Source: Niveibacterium microcysteis
Lineage (GTDB): Bacteria; Pseudomonadota; Gammaproteobacteria; Burkholderiales; Rhodocyclaceae
Assembly (NCBI RefSeq): GCF_017161445.1
Contig: NZ_CP071060.1
Coordinates: forward strand, 4,340,001 to 4,404,000
Direction of reading: 5' to 3'
Length of the DNA: 64,000 nt
The notes under the pieces are model-generated. The model made no database searches. It was not told the DNA's origin and was given only the letters and a program-made list of their open reading frames with translations. Shown here piece by piece: positions 1-14,600 of this stretch (the first letter of the stretch is position 1; every line of letters begins with the position of its first letter). The position numbers and the translations under genes were made by a program.

Positions 1-434
1 GGCGCATTCGGTAGCACCTTGATGGACTCGACCTCAACGGCCGCGCAATAGAAGCCGCCACCAAACCCCCAAATTGGCTCAATAAAAACCTCTAGTTCGG
101 CTGGCGCGCCAGCTTGAGCGCTCGAAACCCGAATGGAGTCGATAACGTTCTGATTATTGAACTCGGAGAGATCAAGGTTCAGCGCCGCTGGTGCGTGGAA
201 GGCGAATGTGATGACTGCGCTCTTCAGCAACGATTGCCGGTAGTCCGCGGTTCCGTCGCCAAGTGTTTCATACGTTCGGACGTGTACCGCCATGCGCGCG
301 ATACATGAACCCGCTTGAACCGGCAAGGCGCGTTCGAGCGCAAAAGAAACGACTTCGGCGTCGTGGAACGAAGGCCATAACCCGAACTCGGCAATGACGC
401 GCGATGCGCCGGAAATGTGGGCGGGCGTACTCAC
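1..434 (-). CDS. Imm50-like immunity protein, 3' end cut by window edge
   Basis: An open minus-strand frame starts at GTG 434 and runs off the left edge, giving at least 144 residues. The N-terminal part contains the string AEFGLWPSFHDAEVVS at about residues 14-29. This FHDAE-type motif is the hallmark I associate with the Imm50 immunity family, whose members protect against toxins delivered by neighbours or encoded in polymorphic toxin loci. No toxin gene is next to it. The ATG overlapping this start reads straight into a stop, so GTG is the only plausible start. Its attC lies left of the window. The family assignment is from remembered motif similarity and is moderately secure. The gene itself is well supported by its position exactly filling a cassette. 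Confidence 0.7.
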   Translation of the reverse strand, partial: MSTPAHISGASRVIAEFGLWPSFHDAEVVSFALERALPVQAGSCIARMAVHVRTYETLGDGTADYRQSLLKSAVITFAFHAPAALNLDLSEFNNQNVIDSIRVSSAQAGAPAELEVFIEPIWGFGGGFYCAAVEVESIKVLPNA

Positions 435-439
435 ATAAG

Positions 440-528
440 GCCTAACGTTGAAAGTAACCGGCACCGAAGCGCAGCGGAGGGAACCCAACTGCGCAGCAGT
501 GGGTGTCCGGTTGACTGCACTGTTAGGC
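440..528 (-). repeat. attC site, type B, 89 bp
   Basis: Outer cores GCCTAAC and GTTAGGC. Arms are AAGTAACCGG and CCGGTTGACT. It is the recombination site of the Imm11-like cassette to its right, whose stop codon lies inside the core. Confidence 0.93.
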
Positions 529-1083
529 AAGAGGTACCTCATGCGTGCATATGTACTGACCAGCAACTGAAACCATTGCTTGGGCTCCGCGCGCGTTTGC
601 GTATTGCGCAAGCACGCTGCGCCCTTTCCTTCCGGCGGGTGAATTCCTTGGCTGAAGGATGCGAAAGAAAGCCGCTGTGGGTTCGAAGTTCGCGGGAAAG
701 GCCTTAATTTGAACAATGTTGCCATTAACGGGAGGTTCCGGGCGGGAGACTTGAGAGCCTTCCGGAACTTCGCACGAAGCAATGATGTGAGGAATGAAAT
801 AGTTCCCATGGCCTTCGATTTCTACCGGCAGGAACTCTAGTTCCTCGAACCCAGACAGCCTTTCACGAACACCCTGTGAGACTGCAAATGCGTTCGGATT
901 GAAAAGCACCGCTGTAGGGGCACGACCAGCCCGATGCAGTTTTAGCTTGGGTGTCTTCCAGTCATGAACCAGTGAGACAGGGCAACGAAGCCGTTCGTCG
1001 TTCCAAACGCATTTTTCATCATCGAACCACTCGGCGGAAAAGTCGGGGCCGATGGAAACTGGCTTCAATTCGTAGACCGCCAT
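523..1083 (-). CDS. Imm11-like (DUF1629-type) cassette protein
   Basis: The protein has 186 residues from ATG 1083. A TTG directly upstream is less likely as start. It is soluble, with no signal peptide or membrane segment. A central stretch (valine-rich, then ERLSGFEELEFLPVEI) followed by a Pro-rich segment resembles the Imm11/DUF1629 family of presumed immunity proteins. In that family a 'sequence turns up to the expected value' layout around residues 70-95 is common. The TAA stop is supplied by the attC core at 522-528, so the protein ends exactly at the recombination site. It neighbours three other immunity-like cassettes. The function is inferred from family resemblance only, and an unrelated ligand-binding protein remains possible. 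Confidence 0.6.
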   Translation of the reverse strand: MAVYELKPVSIGPDFSAEWFDDEKCVWNDERLRCPVSLVHDWKTPKLKLHRAGRAPTAVLFNPNAFAVSQGVRERLSGFEELEFLPVEIEGHGNYFIPHIIASCEVPEGSQVSRPEPPVNGNIVQIKAFPANFEPTAAFFRILQPRNSPAGRKGRSVLAQYANARGAQAMVSVAGQYICTHEVPLA

Positions 1084-1091
1084 CAATGTTT

Positions 1092-1181
1092 GCCTAACGT
1101 TGGACGTAACGGGCGCCGGAGCGCAGCGGAGGGAACCAAACTGCGAGGCAGTTTGGCGTCCCGTTGACGGACTTGTTAGAG
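1092..1181 (-). repeat. attC site, type A, 90 bp
   Basis: Cores GCCTAAC and GTTAGAG. Arms GTAACGGGCGCC and GGCGTCCCGTTGAC. The apical loop contains AACTGCGAGGCAGTT. It belongs to the SMI1/KNR4-like cassette. Confidence 0.93.
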
Positions 1182-1487
1182 CGCATTTCGGAGCATGCCC
1201 TCAAATGCGCTCCATGATGAAGCCACAGGTGAAGCCGCGGCCGGCCCCATGCCGACAAACGGCAGGCACACTATCGCACCGTTGGGGGCAAGGGCGAACA
1301 TTTCACCTCCGCCACTTGTAGCAAAGCCGAAATAGCCCGGTGCGTATTCCGACACCTCGTACTCCTGGTTGTATTGCTCCAACTCTTCCGGCGGCCAGAA
1401 CTCGCAAAGAAACGGATTGGCATCGAGCTCACAAACCAGTGGCTTTCCTGAAGCGTAGTACGCGATTAGTTCGGGGCTAGGTGCCAT
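1176..1487 (-). CDS. SMI1/KNR4 (SUKH) family cassette protein
   Basis: The protein has 103 residues from ATG 1487. The C-terminal half carries FGFATSGGGEMFAL followed by IVCLPFVGM, which is the glycine-rich strand-turn and 'PF.G' signature of the SMI1/KNR4 (SUKH) fold. SUKH proteins are widespread immunity proteins against nuclease and other toxins. At 103 residues it is at the short end of the family (usually 130-160) but keeps the core signature. The stop codon lies in the attC core. No cognate toxin is nearby, so it would act as an orphan immunity gene if it is one. The domain call is fairly secure, the immunity role is inferred. Confidence 0.75.
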   Translation of the reverse strand: MAPSPELIAYYASGKPLVCELDANPFLCEFWPPEELEQYNQEYEVSEYAPGYFGFATSGGGEMFALAPNGAIVCLPFVGMGPAAASPVASSWSAFEGMLRNAL

Positions 1488-1497
1488 TGGTGTTGCG

Positions 1498-1587
1498 CTC
1501 TAACGTTGGACGTAACGGGCACCGAGGCGCAGTCGAGGGAACCCAAATGCGCAGCAGTTTGGCGTCCCGTTGACGGACTTGTTAGAC
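1498..1587 (-). repeat. attC site, type A variant, 90 bp
   Basis: Cores CTCTAAC and GTTAGAC. The left arm is GTAACGGGCACC with AGTCGAGGGAACCC in the loop side, and the right arm is GGCGTCCCGTTGAC, so one arm position is mismatched. It belongs to the Tdi1-like cassette. Confidence 0.92.
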
Positions 1588-1597
1588 GCGGCCCACG

Positions 1598-2107
1598 TCA
1601 CCAGAACCTCCAGCGTGGCTTTTTCTTTGGTTTGTCCACAATTGTAATGTTGCTGATTGGCGTTCCTGGCGGGAGCGCACTCACTTGGCGAGCAATCTGG
1701 CCATTGAGAGAGTAGTGAACTTCAATATCGCACGCTTCAATGTTGTCCAATGAATACTCACCGCCAAGGAGCGGAGGCTTAATAAAGCTGTAGATCTGAC
1801 GAGGCTTAAGGACGAGCCCTTTCATTCTCAAGTCCCCCACCAGCTGAACGCAGAGGTACTGGCCAACAAACTCTCGATCTGACAGTAAAGACTGAAACTC
1901 TTTGGCGGATTGGGCAACCAAACCAGACTTGCCCGCCGCAACGTCTAGCATGTGAATCGTTCCGTCTTCGGTGTCTTGCACGAATGCGTCACCGGCGGCT
2001 GCAAGGAGGATTGGTAACTTTCGATTGCCGATCAGCCACACCCAATCTTCGAGAACGGTTTCTCGCCTGAGGTGTTTGAAGTTTACGGTGAGGTCGTCGA
2101 GGGTCAT
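1598..2107 (-). CDS. Tdi1/DUF1851-like immunity-type cassette protein
   Basis: The protein has 169 residues from ATG 2107. An in-frame TTG two codons upstream is a weaker start. It has the order WVWLIGNRKLPILLAAAGDAFVQ, an acidic turn, IHMLDVAAG, and then FQSLLSDREFVGQYL. This matches the C-terminal domain of DUF1851 proteins, a family that includes the type VI secretion immunity protein Tdi1. A second half with GGEYSLDNIEACDIEVHYS and a basic, Trp-containing tail (PKKKPRWRFW) completes it. It is soluble with no export signal. It is the fourth immunity-type gene in a row. Family resemblance is good by eye, but the toxin it would neutralise is unknown. Confidence 0.65.
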   Translation of the reverse strand: MTLDDLTVNFKHLRRETVLEDWVWLIGNRKLPILLAAAGDAFVQDTEDGTIHMLDVAAGKSGLVAQSAKEFQSLLSDREFVGQYLCVQLVGDLRMKGLVLKPRQIYSFIKPPLLGGEYSLDNIEACDIEVHYSLNGQIARQVSALPPGTPISNITIVDKPKKKPRWRFW

Positions 2108-2117
2108 TAGCAATAGC

Positions 2118-2207
2118 GTCTAACGTTGGACGTAACGGGCGCCGGAGCGCAGCGGAGGGAACCAAAATGCGCAGCATTTTGGCGTCCCGTTGACGGAAGG
2201 GTTGGGC
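2118..2207 (-). repeat. attC site, type A, 90 bp
   Basis: Cores GTCTAAC and GTTGGGC. Standard type A arms with AAAATGCGCAGCATTTT at the apex. It belongs to the DUF2489-like cassette. Confidence 0.93.
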
Positions 2208-2208
2208 G

Positions 2209-2556
2209 TCATGCGCTTCCAAACCTTCCCACGATGTCTTGGCAAGCCTCGGTTGCAAAGGGTTTGGCCCAGGCTTCAATCCGCTCGAACTCAGGCTGGA
2301 GTTTCTTCAGTGCCTCTGGTGACCAACGGTTCTGAATATGGTGCGGCGGAAGATGGTCCGACTCTGATGCGATCGCAACGAACGCCATTAGGTCTGAGTC
2401 CCCTTCGGGAACACCAACGCTTTGACGGAGGCGAGTGATTTGAATTGCCGCCTCAAAGAACGAGAGTTCTTCGGCAAGCACTGCACGGCACAGGGAGACG
2501 AGTTGTCGCCGTGCGTGCTCTTGCGAGTCGTTGAGTGCAGCGCGATCGGGTTTCAT
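2209..2556 (-). CDS. DUF2489-like cassette protein
   Basis: The protein has 115 residues from ATG 2556, just inside its cassette. The longer open frame extends into the neighbouring attC and is not credible. Features are a helical N-terminal half (LCRAVLAEELSFFEAA), then SDLMAFVAIASESDHLP, then WSPEALKKLQPEFERIEAWA and a conserved Cys near the end. This layout matches DUF2489, a family of cytosolic proteins of unknown function that turns up repeatedly in environmental integron cassettes. There is no membrane segment or signal. It may be another immunity-type protein given its neighbours, but nothing in the sequence proves that. Confidence 0.6.
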   Translation of the reverse strand: MKPDRAALNDSQEHARRQLVSLCRAVLAEELSFFEAAIQITRLRQSVGVPEGDSDLMAFVAIASESDHLPPHHIQNRWSPEALKKLQPEFERIEAWAKPFATEACQDIVGRFGSA

Positions 2557-2559
2557 GAC

Positions 2560-2649
2560 GCCCAACGTTGAAAGTAACCGGCACCGGAGCGCAGCGAAGG
2601 GAACCAAAATGCGCAGCATTTTGGCGTCCCGTTGACGGACTTGTTAGGT
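2560..2649 (-). repeat. attC site, hybrid A/B, 90 bp
   Basis: Cores GCCCAAC and GTTAGGT. The left arm is type B (AAGTAACCGGCACC) but the right arm is type A (GGCGTCCCGTTGACGG), leaving mismatches in the stem. It belongs to the 120-residue membrane-protein cassette. Confidence 0.92.
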
Positions 2650-2655
2650 GCGGCG

Positions 2656-3018
2656 CTACTTTGCATTGAGGTTTGCGCGGCCGCTGGAGCGCCGGTAGTA
2701 AGACATGGCCCATATAAGCGCTGCGCCAAGCCAGACTGCGGCAACTGGGCGAATGAATGGCCCGAGCGGGCTGCCCATGGCGCGAGCGAGCACAACCGTG
2801 ACCGCAGTGACGGGAATGCTATGTGCCACGACTTGCCAGAGGGAGAGCGTGCCGAGCGCCTGAGAGACAGCCACTAAGACGGCGGAGATGATTCCCAGGT
2901 AAGCAACCTCGGGAAGCCACCGTGGAAGCTCAACCATTGGCCCAGCGAAATAAAGGAAAGCGCAGACGAGGCCAAGGCAGAAAGAGCAAGCAATTCGCGC
3001 GGGAAGCGATCGAAGCAT
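2656..3018 (-). CDS. Small integral membrane protein of unknown function
   Basis: The protein has 120 residues from ATG 3018. It is strongly hydrophobic, with about four predicted membrane helices (roughly 8-27, 37-55, 60-80 and 88-105) and a basic C-terminal tail (YYRRSSGRANLNAK). The positively charged ends and the absence of a cleavable signal suggest a polytopic inner-membrane protein. I recognise no family. It occupies a cassette alone and its stop falls a few bases before the attC core. Its attC is the mosaic one, which may mark a recombination history different from its neighbours. Confidence 0.7.
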   Translation of the reverse strand: MLRSLPARIACSFCLGLVCAFLYFAGPMVELPRWLPEVAYLGIISAVLVAVSQALGTLSLWQVVAHSIPVTAVTVVLARAMGSPLGPFIRPVAAVWLGAALIWAMSYYRRSSGRANLNAK

Positions 3019-3023
3019 TAAGC

Positions 3024-3113
3024 ACCTAACGTCGGACGTAACGGGCGCCGGAGCGCAGCGGAGGGAACCAAACTGCGCAGCAGTTTGGCGTCCCGTTGAC
3101 GGAAGTGTTAGGC
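3024..3113 (-). repeat. attC site, type A, 90 bp
   Basis: Cores ACCTAAC and GTTAGGC. Standard arms, with GTCGGACG in place of GTTGGACG on the left. The cassette gene to the right reads through the whole element before stopping. Confidence 0.93.
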
Positions 3114-3553
3114 GTCGGTGAGTTCAAGTAAACATCGCCTCGCCACGCCTCCACAACGTGTTCGAATTTGACTACGCCCCGATGTTCAAACGGCGCGGGC
3201 TTTCTGTTGAAGCTAACGCAAAACGCGCGGCCGTTGACGGCGGAAAGAACTGCGTGAAGCGGCTCGTTTGCACTGACGGTCGCCGCTGTGATCCTGACGA
3301 GCGGTAACGTTTCGCGCTTGTGGGCAAAGAGAGGAAGCGTTTTAGCGTCGCGGGATTCGCAGTAGAAATTGAGGGCACGACCGTCGACCTCGCGCTGCAC
3401 CAAGTTGTAGGCGTTGAATTGTGCTTCAACCACGACGCGCAAGGAGCCTGGGAGGGCTGCAACTAAGGCGTGTAGAACCGCAATCTCCAGTGGGGAAAGC
3501 GTAGAGCCTCTGCCGATGATGCGCGATAGCCGGGACCCAAATTGGCTCTTCAT
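3026..3553 (-). CDS. Unknown cassette protein with attC-encoded C-terminal tail
   Basis: The protein has 175 residues from ATG 3553. No stop occurs before the attC, so translation continues through the element and ends at the TAG inside the far core (3026-3028). The last ~29 residues (starting NTSVNGTP, ending RYVRR) are therefore recombination-site sequence. The cassette-specific part of about 145 residues is soluble. It contains LSPLEIAVLHALVAALP near residue 20, a Cys-containing strand FYCESRD, and a C-terminal EHVVEAWRGDVYL. I do not recognise the family. The tail is probably unstructured but basic. Comparison with homologues outside integrons would show whether the body alone is the domain. 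Confidence 0.65.
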   Translation of the reverse strand: MKSQFGSRLSRIIGRGSTLSPLEIAVLHALVAALPGSLRVVVEAQFNAYNLVQREVDGRALNFYCESRDAKTLPLFAHKRETLPLVRITAATVSANEPLHAVLSAVNGRAFCVSFNRKPAPFEHRGVVKFEHVVEAWRGDVYLNSPTPNTSVNGTPNCCAVWFPPLRSGARYVRR

Positions 3554-3566
3554 TGCGGATTTCGAC

Positions 3567-3662
3567 GCCTAACGTGGAAGTGAGGGGCAGCCGGAGTGCG
3601 AAGCACGAAGGGAACCAACAAGCGCAGCTTGTTGGCTGTCCCGCTCGACTGCAGTGTTAGGC
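3567..3662 (-). repeat. attC site, divergent type, 96 bp
   Basis: Cores GCCTAAC and GTTAGGC. Arms AGTGAGGGGCAGCC and GGCTGTCCCGCTCGACT differ from types A and B. The extra length is in the loop side (GTGCGAAGCACGAAGG). It belongs to the 101-residue membrane-protein cassette. Confidence 0.9.
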
Positions 3663-3962
3663 AAGGTTTTCGTCATTGCTGTGAGCTGCCGTGTTGGGCC
3701 TACGCTGCAGCTTAAGAACTAGGCTTCGAAAAACTTTGGCGCCGCCAAGAAACCATATCGCGGCAGGCCAGATGCCTATTGCCGCAATATAAGCCAATAA
3801 GTCAAATTCAAAGCCGGCCGACGTGCCTGGCAAATAGCAATCGCCCTGTGGTGGGCAGCCGATCTCTATGTACAGGCGTTTGGTGACACGATAGATGGCA
3901 ACCGGAAAATAGCTCATGCCTAGCCACCAAAAGATTCTAATCAAGGCTACAACGGTATTCAT
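3657..3962 (-). CDS. Small membrane protein of unknown function
   Basis: The protein has 101 residues from ATG 3962. The open frame upstream of this ATG lies in attC and is ignored. There are two hydrophobic segments (about 4-24 and 55-75). A loop with two cysteines between them (IGCPPQGDC) could form a disulfide if it faces the periplasm. The C-terminal quarter is basic and polar. The stop is provided by the attC core. I recognise no family. Its unusual attC type suggests that this cassette came from a different source array than its neighbours. Confidence 0.65.
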   Translation of the reverse strand: MNTVVALIRIFWWLGMSYFPVAIYRVTKRLYIEIGCPPQGDCYLPGTSAGFEFDLLAYIAAIGIWPAAIWFLGGAKVFRSLVLKLQRRPNTAAHSNDENLA

Positions 3963-3967
3963 TTTCG

Positions 3968-4060
3968 GCCTAACGTTGAAAGTAACCGGCACCGGAGCGC
4001 CAGCGGAGGGAACCCAAACTGCGAAGCAGTTTGGGTGTCCGGTTGACTGATCTGTTAGGT
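3968..4060 (-). repeat. attC site, type B, 93 bp
   Basis: Cores GCCTAAC and GTTAGGT. Arms AAGTAACCGGCACC and GGTGTCCGGTTGACT. Three bases longer than usual because of an extra C in AGCGCCAGCGG and longer CCCAAAC/GTTTGGG pairing. It is the left-most of six adjacent type B sites. Confidence 0.93.
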
Positions 4061-4309
4061 ATCGCAGCCATCGGTTGCTTTCGAGCGTTCATTTTTTCGG
4101 GGCTCCCCGAGCAGAAAGACATTTTCTCGGTATTTGAACCAGCGCCATGTTCCCCACCCGCCATACAAAGACGCAAGGGGAAACAACACAAGCTTCCACC
4201 AGTGAGGCTCGCTGAGGCTCAGAAAGAACAAAACGCCTGAGCCGACGCACAAGAGTGGCGCAAATGCATAAGGTGGCAACCATTTTCCCCAAGGAAGAAG
4301 CCCAAGCAT
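4055..4309 (-). CDS. Small membrane protein of unknown function (84 aa)
   Basis: It starts at ATG 4309. Two hydrophobic helices (about 12-31 and 38-54) are separated by SEPHWWK. A polar, charged C-terminal region follows (KYRENVFLLGEPRKNE). This looks like an inner-membrane hairpin with a cytosolic tail. The stop is taken from the attC core, so the reading frame ends at the cassette boundary. No family is recognised. An overlapping 67-residue frame is a shadow in another phase with no membrane or domain character, and was not chosen. Confidence 0.6.
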   Translation of the reverse strand: MLGLLPWGKWLPPYAFAPLLCVGSGVLFFLSLSEPHWWKLVLFPLASLYGGWGTWRWFKYRENVFLLGEPRKNERSKATDGCDT

Positions 4310-4338
4310 TATTGTTCGTCTCCGAGTGGAATTCAGAT

Positions 4339-4428
4339 ACCTAACGTGGAAGTAACCGGCACCGGAGCGCCAGCGAAGGGAACCAAACTGCGCAGCAGTT
4401 TGGTGTCCGGTTGACTGCAGGGTTAGGC
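4339..4428 (-). repeat. attC site, type B, 90 bp
   Basis: Cores ACCTAAC and GTTAGGC. Begins GTGGAAGTAACCGG rather than GTTGAAAG. The right arm is GGTGTCCGGTTGACT. It belongs to the 99-residue membrane-protein cassette. Confidence 0.93.
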
Positions 4429-4444
4429 GGCGGTTTGCGTTGCA

Positions 4445-4744: not shown

Positions 4745-4762
4745 TAGGGCACCACTCCAGCC

Positions 4763-4852
4763 GCCTAACGTTGAAAGTAACCGGCACCGAGGCGCAGCCG
4801 AGGGGACCAAAATGCGCAGCATTTTGGTGTCCGGTTGACTGACCTGTTAGGT
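4763..4852 (-). repeat. attC site, type B, 90 bp
   Basis: Cores GCCTAAC and GTTAGGT. The loop side carries the GAGGCGCAGCCGAGG variant. Apex AAAATGCGCAGCATTTT. It belongs to the 87-residue soluble protein cassette. Confidence 0.93.
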
Positions 4853-5110
4853 GGCGGGGTTAAGGAGTTTCTGGGCGGCATCAACGTAGTTAAAACCCAA
4901 ATGTTCGTGGTGCTTCGATTGGTAGCAACGAAGTCGGCCGATGAATTCCTCGCTGCTCCACTGCCCCCAGCCATACATTTCCAACGGCAAATTGTGAAAC
5001 GCATAGGCCAGATCGTGCGCTTGCTCGCCTTCGAGATAGCGAAGCTCTACGAACGCGTTGTGCATTAACTCGCACAAGCCTTTCCTTTGCTGTTCAGAAG
5101 GAAGGGGCAT
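4847..5110 (-). CDS. Conserved cassette protein of unknown function (87 aa)
   Basis: It starts at ATG 5110. A GTG two codons upstream is inside the next attC. It is a soluble helical protein with the string HDLAYAFHNLPLEMYGWGQWS at about residues 34-54. I have seen this motif (dLA.AFHNLP.eMYgWG) in small proteins from integron cassettes, but it has no assigned function that I know. The helix before it (LCELMHNAFVELRYL) and the short LRCYQSKHH after it are typical of that group. The stop is in the attC core. The gene is secure by position and motif. The function is unknown. Confidence 0.7.
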   Translation of the reverse strand: MPLPSEQQRKGLCELMHNAFVELRYLEGEQAHDLAYAFHNLPLEMYGWGQWSSEEFIGRLRCYQSKHHEHLGFNYVDAAQKLLNPAT

Positions 5111-5114
5111 AGAC

Positions 5115-5204
5115 ACCTAACGTTGAAAGTAACCGGCACCGGAGCGCAGCGACGGGAACCAAACTGCGCTGCAGTTTGGGGTCCGGTTGACTGCCATGTT
5201 GGGC
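5115..5204 (-). repeat. attC site, type B, 90 bp
   Basis: Cores ACCTAAC and GTTGGGC. Apex AACTGCGCTGCAGTT. The right arm reads GGGGTCCGG, with one mismatch to the left arm. It belongs to the DUF695-like cassette. Confidence 0.92.
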
Positions 5205-5213
5205 GTCTGCCGC

Positions 5214-5738: not shown

Positions 5739-5822
5739 CGTTGAAAGTAACCGGCACCGGAGCGCAGCGGAGGGAACCAAACTGCCCAGCAGTTTGGTGT
5801 CCGGTTGACTGAAGTGTTAGGC
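5733..5822 (-). repeat. attC site, type B, 90 bp
   Basis: Cores GCCCAAC and GTTAGGC. The apex AACTGCCCAGCAGTT has a G-to-C change relative to the usual TGCGCAGCA. It belongs to the 140-residue cassette protein. Confidence 0.93.
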
Positions 5823-6239: not shown

Positions 6240-6246
6240 GCTTGAC

Positions 6247-6339
6247 GCCTAACGTTGAAAGTAACCGGCACCGGAGCGCCAGCGAAGGGAACCCAAACTG
6301 CGCAGCAGTTTGGGTGTCCGGTTGACTGACCTGTTAGGC
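6247..6339 (-). repeat. attC site, type B, 93 bp
   Basis: Cores GCCTAAC and GTTAGGC. Same 93-bp form as the site at 3968, with AGCGCCAGCGAAGG and CCCAAAC/GTTTGGG. Right-most of the type B block. Confidence 0.93.
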
Positions 6340-6343
6340 GCGT

Positions 6344-6628
6344 TTATCGCCACTGATATGCCGCCCCGTTTGCGATTTGGCGAACTGCCTTCGCGTAAAG
6401 CCACGGATATTGTTTTGAAATCGCGATGGCCGTATTGGCGCAAGCTTCTACGAACGTGCCGCTAATCCAAATTTCCGGTTCGCAAGCGGTCGCCCACACA
6501 GACTGAAACAGCAAAAGCTCTTCACCGAAGCCCGCGAGCTTAGTTTCAACGGACGCTTCAAATGACCATGGCTCGGACCACCTATCAAAGCGTTCGATTT
6601 CAGCGTTGATCATTGAAAAATCGGTCAC
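6344..6628 (-). CDS. Unknown cassette protein (94 aa)
   Basis: It starts at GTG 6628. ATG at 6613 (five codons in) is an equally possible start. It is a soluble, acidic, helical protein: EIERFDRWSEPWSFEASVETKL, then GEELLLFQSVWATACEPEIW, and a C-terminus SKQYPWLYAKAVRQIANG ending YQWR. The PWL.AKAV..IANGAAYQWR ending is familiar from hypothetical proteins of integrons and other mobile regions, without a known role. There are several tryptophans for its size. The stop is a few bases before its attC. No function can be proposed. Confidence 0.6.
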   Translation of the reverse strand: MTDFSMINAEIERFDRWSEPWSFEASVETKLAGFGEELLLFQSVWATACEPEIWISGTFVEACANTAIAISKQYPWLYAKAVRQIANGAAYQWR

Positions 6629-6635
6629 GACAAGC

Positions 6636-6725
6636 GCCTAACGTTGGACGTAACGGGCGCCGGAGCGCAGCGGAGGGAACCAAACTGCGCAGCAGTTTGG
6701 CGTCCCGTTGACGGACTGGTTAGGC
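6636..6725 (-). repeat. attC site, type A, 90 bp
   Basis: Cores GCCTAAC and GTTAGGC. Standard type A sequence with GGACTGGTTAGGC at the end. The first type A site to the right of the type B block. It belongs to the 129-residue membrane-protein cassette. Confidence 0.93.
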
Positions 6726-6753
6726 GTGTTCGCATAGGGCCGACCAGCCGAGG

Positions 6754-7143
6754 CTACTGACATGATGCGACTTGCGTTTGTTCAACTGTGCCAACGTATT
6801 TTGATTCATCACCACAGTTTGAGCGGAGCTGAAACGTATATGCCAACCACAAACCACCAAGAAAAACCAGAATTGCTAGTGCGAAACGAAACCCGTATTG
6901 ACGAGGTAGCCGAATAAGCTGGCCTGCGGCAACCGCACCACCCAAGACGAAGCATGCCGAAGAGAAGTTTCGCCAATGGTCTGTGGCCACCCGACCCGGC
7001 AGCCATGCTTCGAGCGCGTTTACCGAGCCGATAGCTAATGCCCATGGCAGCACGAATGCGGAAACGAACAGCAACGCCCACCGCCAGCCACCTTGTGTCG
7101 GGGTTGCTGCGGTGTATTCGTTTTGACTCTCGGTACCAGGCAT
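6754..7143 (-). CDS. Membrane protein of unknown function (129 aa)
   Basis: It starts at ATG 7143. The polar N-terminus (about 20 residues, TESQNEYTAATPTQ) precedes a helix WALLFVSAFVLPWALAIGS (about 22-42). Two more hydrophobic helices follow at about 62-80 and 85-105. The last ~25 residues are polar with two cysteines (SNCGDESK and a penultimate SCQ). This topology suggests a three-helix inner-membrane protein with one tail outside, where the cysteines could pair. No family is recognised. The gene fills its cassette and stops about 30 bp before the attC core. Confidence 0.65.
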   Translation of the reverse strand: MPGTESQNEYTAATPTQGGWRWALLFVSAFVLPWALAIGSVNALEAWLPGRVATDHWRNFSSACFVLGGAVAAGQLIRLPRQYGFRFALAILVFLGGLWLAYTFQLRSNCGDESKYVGTVEQTQVASCQ

Positions 7144-7151
7144 AGGGGTAC

Positions 7152-7241
7152 GCCTAACGTTGGACGTAACGGGCGCCGGAGCGCAGCGGAGGGAACCAAA
7201 CTGCGCAGCAGTTTGGCGTCCCGTTGACGGACTGGTTAGGC
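7152..7241 (-). repeat. attC site, type A, 90 bp
   Basis: Cores GCCTAAC and GTTAGGC. Sequence essentially identical to the site at 6636, showing recent common origin or homogenisation. It belongs to the 144-residue cassette protein. Confidence 0.93.
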
Positions 7242-8659: not shown

Positions 8660-8679
8660 ATAGTGCCGATTAGAGAAGG

Positions 8680-9114: not shown

Positions 9115-9116
9115 AT

Positions 9117-9206
9117 GGCTAACGTTGGACGTAACGGGCGCCGGAGCGCAGCGGAGGGAACCAAACTGCGCAGCAGTTTGGCGTCCCGTTGACGGACTTG
9201 TTAGCC
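9117..9206 (-). repeat. attC site, type A, 90 bp
   Basis: Cores GGCTAAC and GTTAGCC. Standard type A. It belongs to the 140-residue cassette protein whose stop is in the core. Confidence 0.93.
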
Positions 9207-9623
9207 CGCATAGCGCTTGAACCATGGAAGCGCTACAGCCCGAGAAAGTTGGGCGACTTCGAATTCAAACCCAAACGACACCGAGTGCCAGAAGGCGCTG
9301 TTTTCGCGCTGGACCTCGTAGCCGGTAGTGCCATGAACGGCGATGTTGCCACGCGAAGTAACCGACGATACGACGAGCGTGAGTTCGTTTGGTGAGATGG
9401 ATTTGAGCGTTGCTTCACCACGAAGGGTGCGCTCAAGCTCCACGAGCTTGGAGCAGAAGGATCTGAGACTTGGGCCGACAACCCAAAGGTCGTTGTGCCC
9501 GGCGAACCCATTTGAGTTCACCGCAACCGTCAGATAGGCGTCGGCTCCCATTTGCGGTTCGGAATTTCCGTCTGAGGCAAGTGTCAATTCGAAAGCGTCG
9601 TCGCCGTTTGAAAAGCGGACCAT
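9201..9623 (-). CDS. Unknown cassette protein, possibly DUF6228-like
   Basis: The protein has 140 residues from ATG 9623. It is soluble and beta-rich: AYLTVAVNSNGFAG, then LWVVGPSLRSFCSKLVELERTLRGEATLKS, then NELTLVVSSVTSRGNIAVHG and WHSVSFGFEFEVAQLSRA. A helix with 'F...L.eLer..rGea.L.s.s' followed by two long strands recalls DUF6228-type proteins, which are often found with immunity genes. That match is weak and from memory. There is no signal or membrane segment. The stop codon falls in the attC core. If it is an immunity protein, it lies far from the other immunity-like cassettes at the left end. Confidence 0.6.
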   Translation of the reverse strand: MVRFSNGDDAFELTLASDGNSEPQMGADAYLTVAVNSNGFAGHNDLWVVGPSLRSFCSKLVELERTLRGEATLKSISPNELTLVVSSVTSRGNIAVHGTTGYEVQRENSAFWHSVSFGFEFEVAQLSRAVALPWFKRYAG

Positions 9624-9634
9624 ATTTGTGTGCG

Positions 9635-9724
9635 GGCTAACGTTGGACGTAACGGGCGCCGGAGCGCAGCGGAGGGAACCAAACTGCGCAGCAGTTTGGC
9701 GTCCCGTTGACGGACTTGTTAGGC
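9635..9724 (-). repeat. attC site, type A, 90 bp
   Basis: Cores GGCTAAC and GTTAGGC. Standard type A arms and the AACTGCGCAGCAGTT apex. It belongs to the exported Cys-rich cassette protein. Confidence 0.93.
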
Positions 9725-9755
9725 CGCCGCTGCCGCAAACTCTCCACGGAAATGC

Positions 9756-10169: not shown

Positions 10170-10173
10170 GTTG

Positions 10174-10263
10174 GCCTAACGTTGGACGTAACGGGCGCCG
10201 AGGCGCAGCCGAGGGAACCCAAATGCGCAGAATTTGGGTGTCCCGTTGACGGACTTGTTAGGC
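10174..10263 (-). repeat. attC site, type A variant, 90 bp
   Basis: Cores GCCTAAC and GTTAGGC. The left arm GGGCGCC faces right GGTGTCCC, so the inner pair is G.T. The apex AAATGCGCAGAATTT has a G-to-A break of the palindrome. It belongs to the exported helical cassette protein. Confidence 0.92.
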
Positions 10264-10276
10264 GCCACTCGCAACC

Positions 10277-10759
10277 CTAATGGAGCGATGCTGCCAATTT
10301 CAGAGCGGACTGCATCTCTGTTCTGAGCCAACTTTCGTTGGTGGCCTGATGCGCATAAGTCGCACACATTGATTTTGCTTGCGCGTCGTTAAGTTTGGCG
10401 AAAGTGTTCAGCACGGCGGTAGCACCCAAAGGTTGTGCCCCCGTGAGCGCTAGTAGAGCGCCTACACCGGATTGAAGAGAATTCGAGCTCTCTGGGTTCT
10501 TTAGTTTCTCATAGGCCGATTGCTCAACATCAACCGCAGCCTGCTGGAGTTCGCCCAAAAGAGCTTGATTAGCAGCCCGCCACTTCGCAATAGACTGGCT
10601 GAATTGCTTGCCTTCTGTGGGCGCCCGTGCAGTGCAAACCTGCTCTTGGACGACGAGCATTTCATCCGCGTACAGCATTGCCAAGCCTGACTCCTCGCCC
10701 GGAGAGTGAGCCGAGGAGACTGCGGGGAGTAAGGTGCAGAGCAGAGCTAGTTTTCTCAT
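10277..10759 (-). CDS. Exported helical protein of unknown function
   Basis: The protein has 160 residues from ATG 10759. A signal peptide MRKLALLCTLLPAVSSA is followed by a mature domain that looks all-helical: LAMLYADEMLVVQEQVCTA, then FSQSIAKWRAANQALLGELQQAA, then LAASLH at the end. There are two cysteines (VCTAR and MCATY), which could form one disulfide. No family is recognised. The helical bundle of about 140 residues with paired Cys resembles small periplasmic proteins. It fills its cassette, and its stop is 14 bp from the attC core. Export is inferred from the signal only. Confidence 0.7.
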   Translation of the reverse strand: MRKLALLCTLLPAVSSAHSPGEESGLAMLYADEMLVVQEQVCTARAPTEGKQFSQSIAKWRAANQALLGELQQAAVDVEQSAYEKLKNPESSNSLQSGVGALLALTGAQPLGATAVLNTFAKLNDAQAKSMCATYAHQATNESWLRTEMQSALKLAASLH

Positions 10760-10787
10760 GTTTCGATAGAGATGAAATTAGAAGTGT

Positions 10788-10877
10788 GCCTAACGTTGGA
10801 CGTAACGGGCGCCGGAGCGCAGCGGAGGGCACCAAACTGCGCAGCAGTTTGGCGTCCCGTTGACGGACTTGTTAGCC
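10788..10877 (-). repeat. attC site, type A, 90 bp
   Basis: Cores GCCTAAC and GTTAGCC. GGAGGGCACC in place of GGAGGGAACC on the loop side. It belongs to the 137-residue cassette protein. Confidence 0.93.
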
Positions 10878-11285
10878 GGCGCTGAACAGAGTTTTGTCAT
10901 GGTCTGCTAAGTGGCGAAACGCAAGTGTGCTTCCCTCCTCGAAGTTCAGCGTAGCACCGACTTCCGTCGAAGCTCCCCAATACTCGACGGACGCTAGATT
11001 GCGGCCAACGACGCCCGGCATCTCCGATAGGTTTACCAAAACAAGTGCACTTGAGTCGGTGTGGTTTACCGGCACTGTCGGTTGGTCAGACGAGCGCCAA
11101 AATATCGTGTTGCCATCGAAATAGAGCCGAACCCACTTACCAGAGAACTCGAAATAGGCGACGTTCGCAGGGTCTGCGACCTCACCGTGCTCTTGATGCT
11201 GCAATAGGCAGAACGATGTGCATTTACAACCGACGATCGGCGGTTGTTCACCATTGAGCGAGTAGAGCGGAGTGCCGGTGGTCAT
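10872..11285 (-). CDS. Unknown cassette protein (137 aa)
   Basis: It starts at ATG 11285, two residues from the cassette boundary. The longer frame is in attC. It is soluble and beta-rich: VAYFEFSGKWVRLYFDGNTIFWRSSD, then SALVLVNLSEMPGVVGRNLASVEYW and GATLNFEEGSTLAFRHLADHDK. Two cysteines and one more (CKCTSFC) near residue 20 form a small cluster. The plan (three short strands, then a helix, then two strands) resembles immunity-type cassette proteins but I cannot name the family. The stop is taken from the attC core. There is no signal peptide. Confidence 0.6.
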   Translation of the reverse strand: MTTGTPLYSLNGEQPPIVGCKCTSFCLLQHQEHGEVADPANVAYFEFSGKWVRLYFDGNTIFWRSSDQPTVPVNHTDSSALVLVNLSEMPGVVGRNLASVEYWGASTEVGATLNFEEGSTLAFRHLADHDKTLFSAG

Positions 11286-11291
11286 CGAGAC

Positions 11292-11381
11292 GGCTAACGT
11301 TGGACGTAACGGGCGCCGAAGCGCAGCGGAGGGAACCAAAATGCGCTGCATTTTGGCGTCCCGTTGACGGACTTGTTAGAG
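11292..11381 (-). repeat. attC site, type A, 90 bp
   Basis: Cores GGCTAAC and GTTAGAG. GGCGCCGAAGCGC on the left and apex AAAATGCGCTGCATTTT. It belongs to the exported 173-residue cassette protein. Confidence 0.93.
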
Positions 11382-11409
11382 CAGCATGCCGAAAGGCGCA
11401 CTCGTGGCG

Positions 11410-11931
11410 TCATATTAGTGGGGGGGGCAGAAGATCGCCGTCTTGGGCAATGCCTTCAAGATCGAGCGATCCTTCAGGGTAGGCGTCGCACTCGAGGAGC
11501 GCCACATTGCTACTGTAAAAAGCTTTGCCAACTGCAACATTGCCGGCTTGGACTCCGCCAGAGATGCCATTCAAGTCTTCTGCACCGTCGGTAGCCGAAA
11601 GGGTGTAGAAATATGGCCCGCTTCTAAATCCTATCTCAATTAGGGAGCTATGGTATGGATGAAGCCGACGCCAATAGAACTGCGCCTGAGATCGTGAGCG
11701 CGACTTAGGAAATACCAGTTCAGGGGCTTTCCCGGGAGCGCCAAAGCGGTACTGCAAATAGCCGACGTCTCGTTTGAGGTTCGGTGAGGCGCAAACTGAA
11801 GCGATTCGGTTGCTTCGTTTGACCTTGCAGTTGAACACTACCGCCTCTTCCGTCGTACAGAGGGACGCCGCATTCGAGGCGCCGCACAGAAGTACAACTA
11901 AGGCAAAAGCGAAGGAGCGCCAGAGAATCAT
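11410..11931 (-). CDS. Exported protein of unknown function (173 aa)
   Basis: It starts at ATG 11931. Signal peptide MILWRSFAFALVVLLCGASNA, then CTTEEAVVFNCKVKRSNRIASVCASP and VGYLQYRFG, followed by LVFPKSRSRSQAQFYWRRLH. The 'EAVVFNCK..., SVCAS, GYLQYRFG' sequence is a recognisable conserved N-terminal module in exported proteins of unknown function, including many from mobile regions. A second half with GPYFYTLSATDG and VALLECDAYPEGSLDLEG contains a further Cys. A periplasmic location is likely. It ends about 29 bp before the attC core. Family known by pattern only, with no function. Confidence 0.7.
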   Translation of the reverse strand: MILWRSFAFALVVLLCGASNAASLCTTEEAVVFNCKVKRSNRIASVCASPNLKRDVGYLQYRFGAPGKAPELVFPKSRSRSQAQFYWRRLHPYHSSLIEIGFRSGPYFYTLSATDGAEDLNGISGGVQAGNVAVGKAFYSSNVALLECDAYPEGSLDLEGIAQDGDLLPPPLI

Positions 11932-11938
11932 TGGGTTG

Positions 11939-12028
11939 CTCTAACGTTGGACGTAACGGGCGCCGGAGCGCAGCGACGGGGACCAAACTGCGCAGCAGTT
12001 TGGCGTCCCGTTGACGGACTTGTTAGAG
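11939..12028 (-). repeat. attC site, type A, 90 bp
   Basis: Cores CTCTAAC and GTTAGAG. GCAGCGACGGGGACC on the loop side. It belongs to the HEPN-like cassette, whose stop lies in the core. Confidence 0.93.
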
Positions 12029-12520
12029 CACATTTGGCAGTCCTCTTGGCGGGTATCCGACTTCGGTACCGATGGCCTGAAGCAGCCTAATTGCTGCACG
12101 CTTTAGGGGGCCGAACGCCGGATAGGTTTTCATGCCGGTGACAATATATTGAAGTTGTTTTGTTCTGTATAGATCGTCAAGAATCTCAATGGTCTCTAGT
12201 TCCTCGGAAGAAAGGGCGACCAGAGAAAGCAGGCCTAGCTCCTTTGACTTGCGGAGTGCGTCGTGAAGATTGTGACCATAGTCGAACCGCAGCTTCCTAA
12301 GGGTGACACCTCTAGAAAGAAGAAAAGCTTTAAGCGACAGTTCAATGGATTGCCCAACCAGGAATAGAACCGGAATAGGTGGAACAAGTTTAAAGGCTGG
12401 CTCCTTTCCAAGGCTTTCATCTGTGGCAATTGCGGCCAACATGAACTCGCAAGCATAGCGACACATGCCAATTGGTGTTGTACGGGTTTCGTCGCCGTGA
12501 ATTGCGTTTGGTGGATTCAT
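12023..12520 (-). CDS. HEPN-like domain cassette protein
   Basis: The protein has 165 residues from ATG 12520. An N-terminal segment is followed by MCRYACEFMLAAIATDE, then PIPVLFLVGQSIELSLKAFLL, then LRFDYGHNLHDALRKSKELGL. The pattern 'Q.iElslKAfLl..G....l...GHnL...L..a' is the conserved part of HEPN-type four-helix proteins. HEPN domains often act as RNases in toxin-antitoxin and phage-defence systems, but many lack the catalytic RX4-6H motif. Here I see only RFDYGH, which has R-x4-H spacing, so catalysis is possible but unproven. No nucleotidyltransferase partner lies in the cassette. The stop is in the attC core. Confidence 0.65.
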   Translation of the reverse strand: MNPPNAIHGDETRTTPIGMCRYACEFMLAAIATDESLGKEPAFKLVPPIPVLFLVGQSIELSLKAFLLSRGVTLRKLRFDYGHNLHDALRKSKELGLLSLVALSSEELETIEILDDLYRTKQLQYIVTGMKTYPAFGPLKRAAIRLLQAIGTEVGYPPRGLPNVL

Positions 12521-12523
12521 GTG

Positions 12524-12613
12524 CTCTAACGTTGGACGTAACGGGCGCCGGAGCGCAGCGGAGGGAACCAAAGTGCGCAGCACTTTGGCGTCCCGTTGAC
12601 GGACTTGTTAGCG
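12524..12613 (-). repeat. attC site, type A, 90 bp
   Basis: Cores CTCTAAC and GTTAGCG. Apex AAAGTGCGCAGCACTTT, a compensatory change on both arms that preserves pairing. It belongs to the lipoprotein-like cassette. Confidence 0.93.
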
Positions 12614-12631
12614 TGGCGAGGACGCGTGGGG

Positions 12632-13003
12632 CTAGTTTGCATGTGATACCGCGACGCTTGCTATGGCGCCACCAGGCGAAACTGTGACGACCACCCGTAG
12701 TAGTTCGTCGGAGAAAACGCCCTCCCGGTATACGTAAATGCAGTCGATGCGTTCCGCTGTCCGCAGAGCGCATGACTTAGGTGGGTGGGTCATGTCGAGT
12801 GCAAACGCCGCAACTGGCTTGCCAACCAGGAATGAATTTGCGTGTTGATTGATCGCCGCGATTGAGATCGTCTTCGCTTGCTGATCTGTAACCCCCAGAG
12901 CGGAGAGTAGTTCTTCTTCGGACGTTTCGCAGTTGCAGGCGCAACCACAAACGACCGACATTATAAGGATTGGTACGAGCGCGGCTGTCCCCGGGATGCT
13001 CAT
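12632..13003 (-). CDS. Exported, probable lipoprotein of unknown function
   Basis: The protein has 123 residues from ATG 13003. The N-terminal hydrophobic stretch (ALVPILIMSVVCGCACNC) ends in four closely spaced cysteines. One of them (VVCGC or GCAC) could be a lipobox cysteine. The mature part has EEELLSALGVTDQQAKTISI, then GKPVAAFALDM, CALRTAERIDCIYVYREG and LLRVVVTVSPGGAIASV. The last strands look like a beta-sheet edge. No family is recognised. Lipid attachment is inferred and weaker than for the cassette at 7760 because the cysteine run is unusual. It ends 20 bp before the attC core. Confidence 0.62.
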   Translation of the reverse strand: MSIPGTAALVPILIMSVVCGCACNCETSEEELLSALGVTDQQAKTISIAAINQHANSFLVGKPVAAFALDMTHPPKSCALRTAERIDCIYVYREGVFSDELLRVVVTVSPGGAIASVAVSHAN

Positions 13004-13010
13004 GTGTTCA

Positions 13011-13100
13011 CGCTAACGTTGGACGTAACGGGCGCCTGAGCGCAGCGAAGGGAACCAAACTGCGCAGCAGTTTGGCGTCCCGTTGACGGACTGGTTAGAA
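13011..13100 (-). repeat. attC site, type A, 90 bp
   Basis: Cores CGCTAAC and GTTAGAA. GGCGCCTGAGCGC on the left. It belongs to the 166-residue membrane-protein cassette. Confidence 0.93.
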
Positions 13101-13104
13101 ATAG

Positions 13105-13605
13105 TCACTCAGCCACCTGCCGCCCAGCGATGTAGACGGCGATACGGCCAGATAGGGCGACAAGGGCGGCCGAAAACGCCATCTGAGCGATAACGGCGTA
13201 GACATCGGCCCGGGCTTCCGGCGTGAGGCTGGAGAAGTAGGAGGCACTTCCAGGAACAATCATTGCTCGAAATACGATAGAGGCAACGTAGCTGAGCGAC
13301 GACCAGAAAAACCAGAGGCCGATTAATGCGCAGCCGATCCGTGCCGCTTCAAAGCCAGGCACACGAACAACATTGTCGAAGTTGGTGCGCGGGATGATCT
13401 TGTGCGCGACTGCCATAGGGAACAGCCAGAGACCTAGGGCCAGTGCCAAATAGATGCCACCGTAGACTAGAGCGCTCGGAAGTTGATCGCCTAGGTTGGC
13501 GGAAGTAAGTTGGTGCGGGACGATGAAAAAGTAGTTGGCTGAACTCGCCGCACATAGGACGGCAAATAGACGAACTGCAATCGCGACAATTTGCTGAGGC
13601 GTCAT
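13105..13605 (-). CDS. Membrane protein of unknown function (166 aa)
   Basis: It starts at ATG 13605. About four membrane helices: residues 8-30, 43-64, 90-112 and 135-155. Loops are short. An N-terminal QQIVAIAVRLFAVLCAA leads in, and there is a periplasm-side FIVPHQLTSANLGDQLP. The GCALIGLWFFWSSLSYV helix has a Trp-Phe-Phe-Trp group. The C-terminus is basic (GRQVAE). There is no enzymatic signature and no recognised family. This is one of the longer membrane-protein cassettes. It stops 4 bp before its attC core. Confidence 0.68.
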   Translation of the reverse strand: MTPQQIVAIAVRLFAVLCAASSANYFFIVPHQLTSANLGDQLPSALVYGGIYLALALGLWLFPMAVAHKIIPRTNFDNVVRVPGFEAARIGCALIGLWFFWSSLSYVASIVFRAMIVPGSASYFSSLTPEARADVYAVIAQMAFSAALVALSGRIAVYIAGRQVAE

Positions 13606-13611
13606 GGCTAT

Positions 13612-13689
13612 TTCTAACGTTTGACATGAGCGGCGGCTGGAAGCGTGCGAAGCACGCTGGAAGACGTCCGCTCGATGGAATGGTTAGGC
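13612..13689 (-). repeat. attC site, divergent short type, 78 bp
   Basis: Cores TTCTAAC and GTTAGGC. Arms TGAGCGGCGGCTGG and GACGTCCGCTCGATGG with apex GTGCGAAGCAC. It is clearly unlike types A to C, so this cassette has a separate origin. Confidence 0.9.
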
Positions 13690-14031
13690 ATTTTGTTCGA
13701 CGACGAGAAGGTTGTCTCTTCCCGCGAACTGAAACGCCTCTGGGCCGCGAATGGCGCTTTCACTGCTGAGCACATGAAGGCTCGCACCGCCTTCGAATGA
13801 AAGCGATAGAGCGCACTGCTCAGCTTGCTCGACTTGAACTGCGCGTTGACCGATGAGATTGACGAGACCGTCGCAGAAACCGGGAGAACCTTGAGAAATC
13901 TGGACTCCGCGAAACACAAGTTTGGCGATGTTGTAGACGGAGAACACCTCATCCTGGAACACCAGTTGCACGTAGTCGTGAACGAAAACGACTTGCGACA
14001 GTGGTGCGACTGGGCTGAGCTTTGATGACAT
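13684..14031 (-). CDS. Conserved cassette protein of unknown function (115 aa)
   Basis: It starts at ATG 14031. It is soluble. The N-terminal stretch QVVFVHDYVQLVFQDEVFSVYNIAK is a clear conserved beta pair, and ISQGSPGFCDGLVNLIGQ follows. The C-terminal part has CALSLSFEGGASLHVLSS and a short IRGPEAFQFAG. The order 'VFVHDYvQL.F....fsvyN' then 'GFCD.LV.LIgq' is one I recognise from proteins spread widely among bacteria, with no assigned function. The stop is in its 78-bp attC, confirming that the cassette and its site travel together. No function is suggested. Confidence 0.68.
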   Translation of the reverse strand: MSSKLSPVAPLSQVVFVHDYVQLVFQDEVFSVYNIAKLVFRGVQISQGSPGFCDGLVNLIGQRAVQVEQAEQCALSLSFEGGASLHVLSSESAIRGPEAFQFAGRDNLLVVEQNA

Positions 14032-14040
14032 GGATCAAAT

Positions 14041-14130
14041 GCCTAACGTTGGACGTAACGGGCGCCGGAGCGCAGCGGAGGGGACCAAAATGCGTAGCAT
14101 TTTGGCGTCCCGTTGACGGACTTGTTGGGC
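14041..14130 (-). repeat. attC site, type A, 90 bp
   Basis: Cores GCCTAAC and GTTGGGC. Apex AAAATGCGTAGCATTTT. It belongs to the TonB-domain cassette, which is closest to the attI-like end. Confidence 0.93.
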
Positions 14131-14149
14131 ATCGACGCCGCCTGAATCT

Positions 14150-14521
14150 CTATTCGAGGCGCCATTCGAAATTAAGAGCCGTTGCTTGCTCGACAAATTT
14201 GCCATCCTTCTCGAATGGTTTGAAGCAGGCGTTCGTGATTGCGGCAACCGCCGCTCCATCAAGCAGAGGAAAGCCGCTTGACTTGGCGACGGTTACCCGC
14301 CGCGGCCGACCCTCAGAGGTAATCAAGAACTCCAGACCGACAGTTCCTTGCTCCATGCGACGTGCCGACTCGGCGGGATATCGTGGTGCCTCGCAATTGC
14401 ACGGCGGTACAGCCGTTGTTTTTGGGCATTCCGGTATTGGTTTGGGCGGTGAGTCGGCATGCGCTGGCGAGACAACCAATGTGAACAGTGCAAGGCTAGC
14501 AAGCGTAGGAGTAAATCGCAT
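14150..14521 (-). CDS. Exported TonB C-terminal domain protein, attI-proximal cassette
   Basis: The protein has 123 residues from ATG 14521, between the attI-like junction and the first attC. N-terminal MRFTPTLASLALFTLVVSPAHA is a signal peptide. A Pro/Cys-rich linker (PECPKTTAVPPCNC) leads to a TonB C-terminal domain: APRYPAESARRMEQGTVGLEF, then EGRPRRVTVAKSSGFPLLDGAA and ACFKPFEKDG. A full TonB would need an N-terminal membrane anchor and a long proline spacer, so this is a free periplasmic domain. Energy transduction through TonB-dependent receptors is therefore uncertain. As the first cassette it would be the most recently acquired and best placed for expression. Confidence 0.75.
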   Translation of the reverse strand: MRFTPTLASLALFTLVVSPAHADSPPKPIPECPKTTAVPPCNCEAPRYPAESARRMEQGTVGLEFLITSEGRPRRVTVAKSSGFPLLDGAAVAAITNACFKPFEKDGKFVEQATALNFEWRLE

Positions 14522-14542
14522 ATTCAGTGACAGATTTGAGAT

Positions 14543-14600
14543 GCCCAACGTTAAGTAGACCTCAAAACGAGGTTTTATTGGGATATTGATCAAACAGCAG
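14543..14600 (-). other. attI-like junction at the proximal end of the cassette array
   Basis: The first cassette starts at core GCCCAAC (14543-14549, minus strand GTTGGGC), but no attC arms lie to the right of it. Immediately outside is TTAAGTAGACCTCAAAACGAGG, in which CCTC/GAGG can pair around GTTTT. That position and the lone core are what an attI site should show. The exact extent of the site is not defined by the sequence, and the end coordinate is approximate. Confidence 0.6.

Follow-up and report, generated by a model that had tools for sequence, protein, structure and literature searches.

A large cassette array with a retained attI site and no adjoining integrase gene in Niveibacterium microcysteis

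The window considered here is a stretch of 64,000 nucleotides (nt) from Niveibacterium microcysteis (assembly GCF_017161445.1, contig NZ_CP071060.1, referred to as C1; C1:4340001-4404000), which opens with a large integron cassette array. The array holds 33 attC sites in total, ends at a complete attI site and has no recognisable integrase gene (intI) beside it. Read from its sequence, it is a cluster of attC sites lacking integron-integrases (CALIN), a class recognised by at least two attC sites with no recognisable intI next to them, that has retained its attI. The integron has probably lost its integrase and persists as a cassette store that is served in trans, and it is of more interest for the missing integrase than for its size. 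The assembly consists of two contigs with 4,854,389 bases, 4,825,992 of them in C1. Comparisons within the genus cover seven genomes, namely this one and G001 to G006; the assemblies of G004 (410 contigs) and G006 (360 contigs) are drafts, in which arrays often break. Positions given without a contig are window positions, and negative ones lie to its left.

The attI Site and the Missing Integrase

The two ends of the system are given by the following features:

1..14549, minus strand: cassette array, with 28 of its 33 attC sites in the window and the rest reaching left to -2367
14549..14590, minus strand: attI site without an integrase gene, crossover between G and TT at 14549/14548
14655..14668, minus strand: CAGGATATTCATCA motif, upstream of attI

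A genome search with the integrase model TIGR02249 gave no match in or near the window. The model scored over its cut-off twice, at C1:1197257-1198201 (+) and C1:1300073-1301011 (-), where both genes are full length and free of internal stops, and six weaker matches lie elsewhere in the genome. When the two integrases were compared by tblastn with the flanks of the array (window 14001-17000 and L017 14001-20000), only chance-level matches appeared, the best with E 0.83. On a circular chromosome, the nearest full-length intI would be some 1.67 Mb from the array. The two genes belong to the complete integrons of this genome:

C1:1197257, integron 1: full-length divergent intI, 5 attC sites at E ≤ 0.01
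C1:1300073, integron 2: full-length divergent intI, 15 attC sites at E ≤ 0.01

The attI of the array is identical at all 42 nt (14549-14590) to attI sites in G001:C34 and G006:C285, each of which adjoins an intact intI. It is the only copy in its own genome within three mismatches, and a reversed attI pattern, used as a control, has no match across the seven genomes. Upstream of it the motif CAGGATATTCATCA occurs once in the window against 0.02 occurrences expected for a pattern that was picked after being seen. Close variants of CAGGATATTCATCA stand just upstream of the intI start in integron 1, G001:C34 and G006:C285, and the stretch may be what is left of an intI promoter region. As a separate observation, variants of the motif GGATATTCATCA / TGATGAATATCC recur around type-1 intI promoters and attI sites (L080, L083, L020 upstream of intI) and could represent an operator.

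Arrays of this size usually belong to sedentary chromosomal integrons, as an earlier note on this DNA had pointed out, and both the number and the homogeneity of the attC sites would suit a complete integron whose integrase merely lies outside the window. However, both ends of the array have been read (attI on the right, the last attC at -2367 on the left), the flanks contain no recognisable intI, and the integrase model, run on the whole genome, found nothing near the array, so that this explanation is extremely improbable, provided that the assembly is correct at 4354.5 kb. Of the components of a complete integron, attI is present by sequence at the proximal end and the adjacent divergent intI is absent. 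The label of sedentary integron is thus only partly upheld: the large attC array stands, but no integrase was found beside it.

attC Sites and Extent of the Array

The window contains 28 attC sites between 438 and 14133, with a span from R'' to R' of 78-96 bp, in agreement with the count and lengths that the earlier note had placed by hand:

438..531, minus: attC, 95.3 bits
1090..1184, minus: attC, 109.4 bits
1496..1590, minus: attC, 95.0 bits
2116..2210, minus: attC, 107.7 bits
2558..2652, minus: attC, 99.2 bits
3022..3116, minus: attC, 110.3 bits
3565..3665, minus: attC, 68.3 bits
3966..4063, minus: attC, 93.4 bits
4337..4431, minus: attC, 96.7 bits
4761..4855, minus: attC, 101.8 bits
5113..5207, minus: attC, 97.3 bits
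5731..5825, minus: attC, 105.4 bits
6245..6342, minus: attC, 96.7 bits
6634..6728, minus: attC, 113.4 bits
7150..7244, minus: attC, 113.3 bits
7674..7768, minus: attC, 112.3 bits
8103..8197, minus: attC, 110.8 bits
8568..8662, minus: attC, 102.1 bits
9115..9209, minus: attC, 112.4 bits
9633..9727, minus: attC, 112.0 bits
10172..10266, minus: attC, 103.6 bits
10786..10880, minus: attC, 111.7 bits
11290..11384, minus: attC, 109.0 bits
11937..12031, minus: attC, 107.1 bits
12522..12616, minus: attC, 109.0 bits
13009..13103, minus: attC, 109.2 bits
13610..13692, minus: attC, divergent and shortest (78 bp from R'' to R'), 53.1 bits
14039..14133, minus: attC of the first (attI-proximal) cassette, 109.8 bits

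The scores come from R1, a covariance model built here from 32 of the 33 array sites, the one that straddles the window edge (-92 to 2) being omitted. These 32 sites are the training set and score by construction, while the other 24 matches in the genome are independent of the training. The genome search, in which 150 of 3486 first-look candidates were scored, gave 56 matches at E ≤ 0.01: 33 in this array, 15 in integron 2, 5 in integron 1, two in a mini-array at 2.688 Mb and one alone at 1.916 Mb (C1:1916474-1916568, plus strand, 52.1 bits), an isolated attC-like site that is distant from all arrays. Searches of single loci were run at E ≤ 0.1; weak matches outside arrays reach 17-29 bits there (L020:1581-1666 with 28.6 bits, L021:10176 and L018:10191), compared with 53-113 bits for the sites in the window. 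The covariance-model check that the earlier note had proposed recovers its 28 sites. The array also continues past the left edge, as had been expected, with five more attC sites including the straddling one; the leftmost ends at window -2367 (C1:4337633), so that the end of the array is located 2.4 kb outside the window.

The paired RYYYAAC/GTTRRRY cores described earlier hold literally only in part. All 28 window sites carry the core ends AAC and GTT, but the full consensus is found in 19 of 28 for each core and in only 15 for both. The consensus structure of the 32 aligned sites has 27 pairs, ten of them with compensatory changes, and contains one unpaired column (column 20) in the L'' arm of the L''/L' stem. 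Known attC sites carry an extrahelical base in the L'' arm. An exact pattern derived from the attC sites of the array occurs in 19 stretches of named public genomes (ten from Niveibacterium sp. 24ML, four from Uliginosibacterium and five others), and the same attC type is present on a 9,408-base contig of the congener G001.

Integrity of the Cassettes

An inserted cassette starts with the complement of its own R'' core, since both halves have met in the free circle. In 32 of the 33 cassettes, and in all 28 of the window, this complementarity is exact over the first 7 nt, and the first cassette, at attI, is among these perfect matches. As a control, pairing R'' with R' within each site as it now stands gave 11 of 33, and 10,000 shuffled pairings gave a mean of 8.4 and a maximum of 17 of 33. 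By this core-match test the cassettes show little decay.

The matched ends also identify the units as site-specifically inserted cassettes and not as repeats of the repetitive extragenic palindromic (REP) type. REP-like or other intergenic palindromic repeats share with the elements seen here that they are palindromic, repeated and placed between small genes; by contrast, units of gene plus site with matched ends (32 of 33), some of them found as whole cassettes in two arrays, and the occurrence of the same sites next to intI genes in other arrays leave this alternative a negligible probability, and the cassette-end test rules it out. An Rfam scan of the whole window gave no family at gathering score, but since it was not checked whether Rfam holds an attC model, the scan is uninformative on attC. 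That this is a true attC array whose small genes are mostly unknown is upheld, by the covariance model as well.

Cassettes Shared With Other Arrays

The cassette bodies of this array were compared with those of integrons 1 and 2, two G001 arrays, G003 and G006:C290. No cassette is repeated within the array, as had been claimed, yet four of the 33 recur elsewhere in the genome: they match cassettes of integron 2 along the whole body, in an order that is not collinear between the two arrays.

6634..7157, minus: no differences in 434 nt (100%), integron 2 cassette no. 1; encodes a 129-residue protein without a Pfam match at E ≤ 0.01
9115..9640, minus: WapI-like, 13 differences in 436 nt (97.0%), integron 2 cassette no. 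4
2558..3029, minus: 12 differences in 382 nt (97.1%), integron 2 cassette no. 6
4761..5120, minus: 9 differences in 270 nt (96.6%), integron 2 cassette no. 8

New cassettes normally enter at attI. The identical cassette is no. 1 at the attI of integron 2 and no. 15 here, which suggests a move out of this array and into integron 2, although a common outside source may also account for it. Beyond this genome, cassette 6245-6641 has a counterpart in G006:C290 with 98.4% identity.

The attC sites of the cassette with the identical body (6634-6728 and L022:16664-16759) are not the same: their apical stems are set apart by a compensatory change of a pair and by one inserted T, and this pair also varies among the 32 aligned attC sites. 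Within integron 2 (L027, C1:1305001-1320000), a 1.45-kb stretch is present in three near-identical copies (98.6-99.8%), and two open reading frames (ORFs) encode IS110-family transposases. Two 3' fragments of type-2 intI stand without the remainder of the gene at C1:2379653-2379955 and C1:1822772-1822939, the former in a stretch of 452 nt that matches the integron 2 region at 98.5% identity.

Recurrence in the Genus

Searched with 62 nt of attI at E ≤ 1, the seven genomes gave nine places, spread over five of them, and several of the nine resemble the present arrangement. The genome studied here has a second attI-plus-array unit, with an attI at C1:2686477-2686523 (83% identity), attC matches at 2687019 (25.6 bits), 2687790 and 2688434, and no intI match at E ≤ 0.001 in 2670001-2690000. 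This unit is visibly decayed, to judge from attC scores of 25.6 and 49.9 bits beside one of 81.5. In G006:C183 an identical attI is followed by a first cassette that is 92% identical over 156 nt to window 9489-9644, and this 9,785-base contig has no intI match at E ≤ 0.001. In G004:C406 an attI adjoins an intI truncated after about 63-67 codons (a 5' stub) and attC matches of 64.7 and 32.5 bits. Each of the three genomes also has at least one intact type-1 intI (integron 1, G006:C285 and G004:C173).

The sequence on the integrase side of attI is continuous in the contigs G006:C183 and G004:C406. However, G006:C183 and G006:C285 begin with the same 52 nt, so that this end of G006:C183 may be an assembly fault. 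G006:C183 ends inside its array, which fits an insertion and a rearrangement alike. That the G006:C183 unit is an old shared locus is unsupported, as the corresponding 15-17 kb in the genome studied here, G003 and G001 are without attI, attC and intI.

Origin and Maintenance of the Array

Under the explanation considered probable here, a type-1 integron would have lost its intI and kept its attI together with the 33-cassette array. An integrase from elsewhere in the chromosome would excise cassettes of the array and re-insert them elsewhere, and integron 2 would have received at least one of them at its attI. Cassettes may also still enter in trans through the attI that the array has kept, and the array would act as a cassette store without an enzyme of its own. 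Several observations weigh against this. Integron 1 has an attI that is related to the array attI but diverged (37 of 49 positions by blastn, E 0.002 in a small comparison), and its integrase, IntI1, shares 75-77% identity with those encoded next to the exact copies of the array attI in G001 and G006. A simple consensus scan of 14400-15300 for a cassette promoter (Pc), which can miss one, found none of the sigma-70 type. Three of the four shared pairs differ by about 3%, and the differing codons of the three non-identical pairs (synonymous 7, 5 and 3; nonsynonymous 5, 5 and 6) do not indicate strong purifying selection. The direction of transfer depends on a single identical cassette, and a common pool from which the arrays drew independently could also explain the shared cassettes.

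Some of these points would suit an inert remnant, in which the integrase was lost, the array is decaying, and the cassettes that recur in integron 2 came independently from an environmental pool or had been taken up before the loss. The divergence of three of the four shared cassettes is in line with such a history, and the second unit of this genome, with its attI at 83% and its attC sites of 25.6 and 49.9 bits, illustrates it. Against it stand the perfect 7-nt core matches in 28 of 28 window cassettes, an attI identical to sites linked to intI, the presence of 33 attC sites here against 15 and 5 in the integrase-bearing arrays, and the one body that matches the attI-proximal cassette of integron 2 without a difference in 434 nt. 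An inert remnant is consequently regarded as a rather doubtful, if serious, alternative to an integrase-less store served in trans. The latter may be extended to a genus-wide network of helper and satellites, in which a single integrase gene works for several attI-plus-array units after repeated loss of their own integrases, the integrase-less attI sites dock cassettes in trans, and cassettes, some with immunity genes against toxins of rivals, circulate between the units of one chromosome; this extension is speculative and considered unlikely.

Cassette Genes

According to the earlier note, each cassette carries one minus-strand gene. The longer ORF starting with ATG is on the minus strand in 27 of the 28 window intervals, in one of them by only 112 against 106 residues, and the exception is the interval 3022-3572, where a 175-residue minus-strand ORF terminates inside the attC. 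The estimate that at least half of the genes belong to no known family is borne out: 23 of the 28 window cassette proteins have no Pfam match over the gathering score and 20 have none at E ≤ 0.01. Among all 33 proteins, three of which were scanned with ORF bounds slightly longer than the final ones, six score over the gathering score (SUKH-1, Tdi1_C, DUF2489, DUF695, TonB_C and Imm50), four have weaker matches (WapI, HEPN, DUF6188 and DUF1040) and 23 have none at E ≤ 0.01. The genes of immunity-type families, together with the first cassette gene, are:

3..434, minus: most of the gene for an Imm50 immunity protein, in the edge-crossing cassette (PF15594, 43.3 bits, cut-off 27.1)
1176..1487, minus: SMI1_KNR4 (SUKH-1) protein (PF09346, 27.5 bits, cut-off 25.4)
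1598..2113, minus: protein with the C-terminal domain of the type VI secretion system immunity protein Tdi1 (PF08906, 52.7 bits, cut-off 27.4)
9201..9623, minus: WapI-like immunity protein, itself below the Pfam cut-off
14150..14521, minus: first cassette gene, TonB C-terminal domain (PF03544, 69.6 bits, cut-off 24.6)

The WapI-like assignment is aided by homologues, PF24716 being found in 15 of 16 other than P0001. Immunity-type families thus account for four of the 33 cassette proteins (Imm50, SUKH-1, Tdi1_C and WapI-like), and no toxin-named family is among the Pfam matches in the array. Heterogeneous polyimmunity loci (PMC3482391) consist mostly of diverse immunity genes; here the proportion is four of 33, and 23 of 33 proteins have no Pfam match at E ≤ 0.01. 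An excess of immunity genes relative to the other arrays (no immunity-named family in 45 proteins) was set aside and is not relied on, because nine of the 54 other-array proteins had been dropped, including the WapI-like copy of integron 2 and other shared, duplicated or insertion sequence-containing ones, which makes the comparison unclean. A PADLOC scan of 32 of the 33 cassette proteins, the edge-crossing one being excluded, found no family at E ≤ 0.01, and in an NCBIfam scan of 30 of the 33 TonB alone scored over its cut-off.

Genomic Surroundings

The array has its left flank on one side and glmS (16302-18143) on the other. The neighbour of glmS in G006 is a type-2 integron whose intI has one internal TAG. 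A segment of the array's left flank, window -16828 to -6160 (in L017), is present in G003 at a distance of no more than about 0.5 kb from glmS, inverted with respect to the arrangement here. Around glmS no attC was found at E ≤ 0.01 in G001, G002, G003 and G005 (20 kb each) or in G004 (a 3.1-kb contig). A fixed genus-wide integron locus was accordingly rejected, as the glmS stretches of G001 to G005 are without attC and that of G006 has a type-2 integron. The contents of the glmS side differ among genomes, which indicates that the site is variable.

Between attI and glmS, a 682-nt stretch with a HAD_SAK_2 gene (window 15146-15827) has a 92% copy at C1:2766548-2767229, and the 101-nt piece directly before it has an 87% copy at C1:1863768-1863868.

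Comparison With Known Systems

A literature search that covers few subscription journals gave no paper on orphan attI sites or attI sites lacking an integrase, none on integrons of Niveibacterium and, among the entries listed, no account of such an attI beside a large array that is intact. Sedentary chromosomal integrons of the Vibrio and Xanthomonas type combine a large array, homogeneous attC sites, mostly unknown genes and a chromosomal location. The present array resembles them in all these traits and differs in having no integrase gene next to its attI. With integrons 1 and 2 of the same genome it shares attC sites found by a single model, four cassettes (integron 2) and a related attI (integron 1), whereas both of these have a full-length divergent intI and fewer attC sites (15 and 5 in integrons 2 and 1).

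The closest counterparts are the published CALINs, as described in three sources. They are present in about half of Xanthomonas genomes and mobilisable in trans (PMC12444791), act as hitchers served by complete integrons and arise by integrase loss or translocation (PMC11389934), and have been proposed to be degraded integrons in a survey with IntegronFinder (PMC9024848). Service in trans is not a new idea, because PMC12444791 and PMC11389934 already state it. The same survey gives a mean of 14 attC sites per complete integron and of almost 6 per CALIN, and reports that the standard program detects no attI outside class 1 (PMC9024848). In common with the published CALINs (PMC12444791; PMC9024848), the array consists of attC sites without an adjoining intI in a genome that encodes intI elsewhere. 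It differs from them in keeping a complete attI and 33 attC sites, against the survey mean of almost 6 (PMC9024848), in exceeding the integrase-bearing arrays of its own genome and in having cassettes in common with one of these. A large, undamaged, integrase-less array with an attI, distant shared cassettes and counterparts in congeners makes the choice between dead end and working satellite testable, and for such a test the genus has attI and attC sites that are defined, together with two types of integrase.

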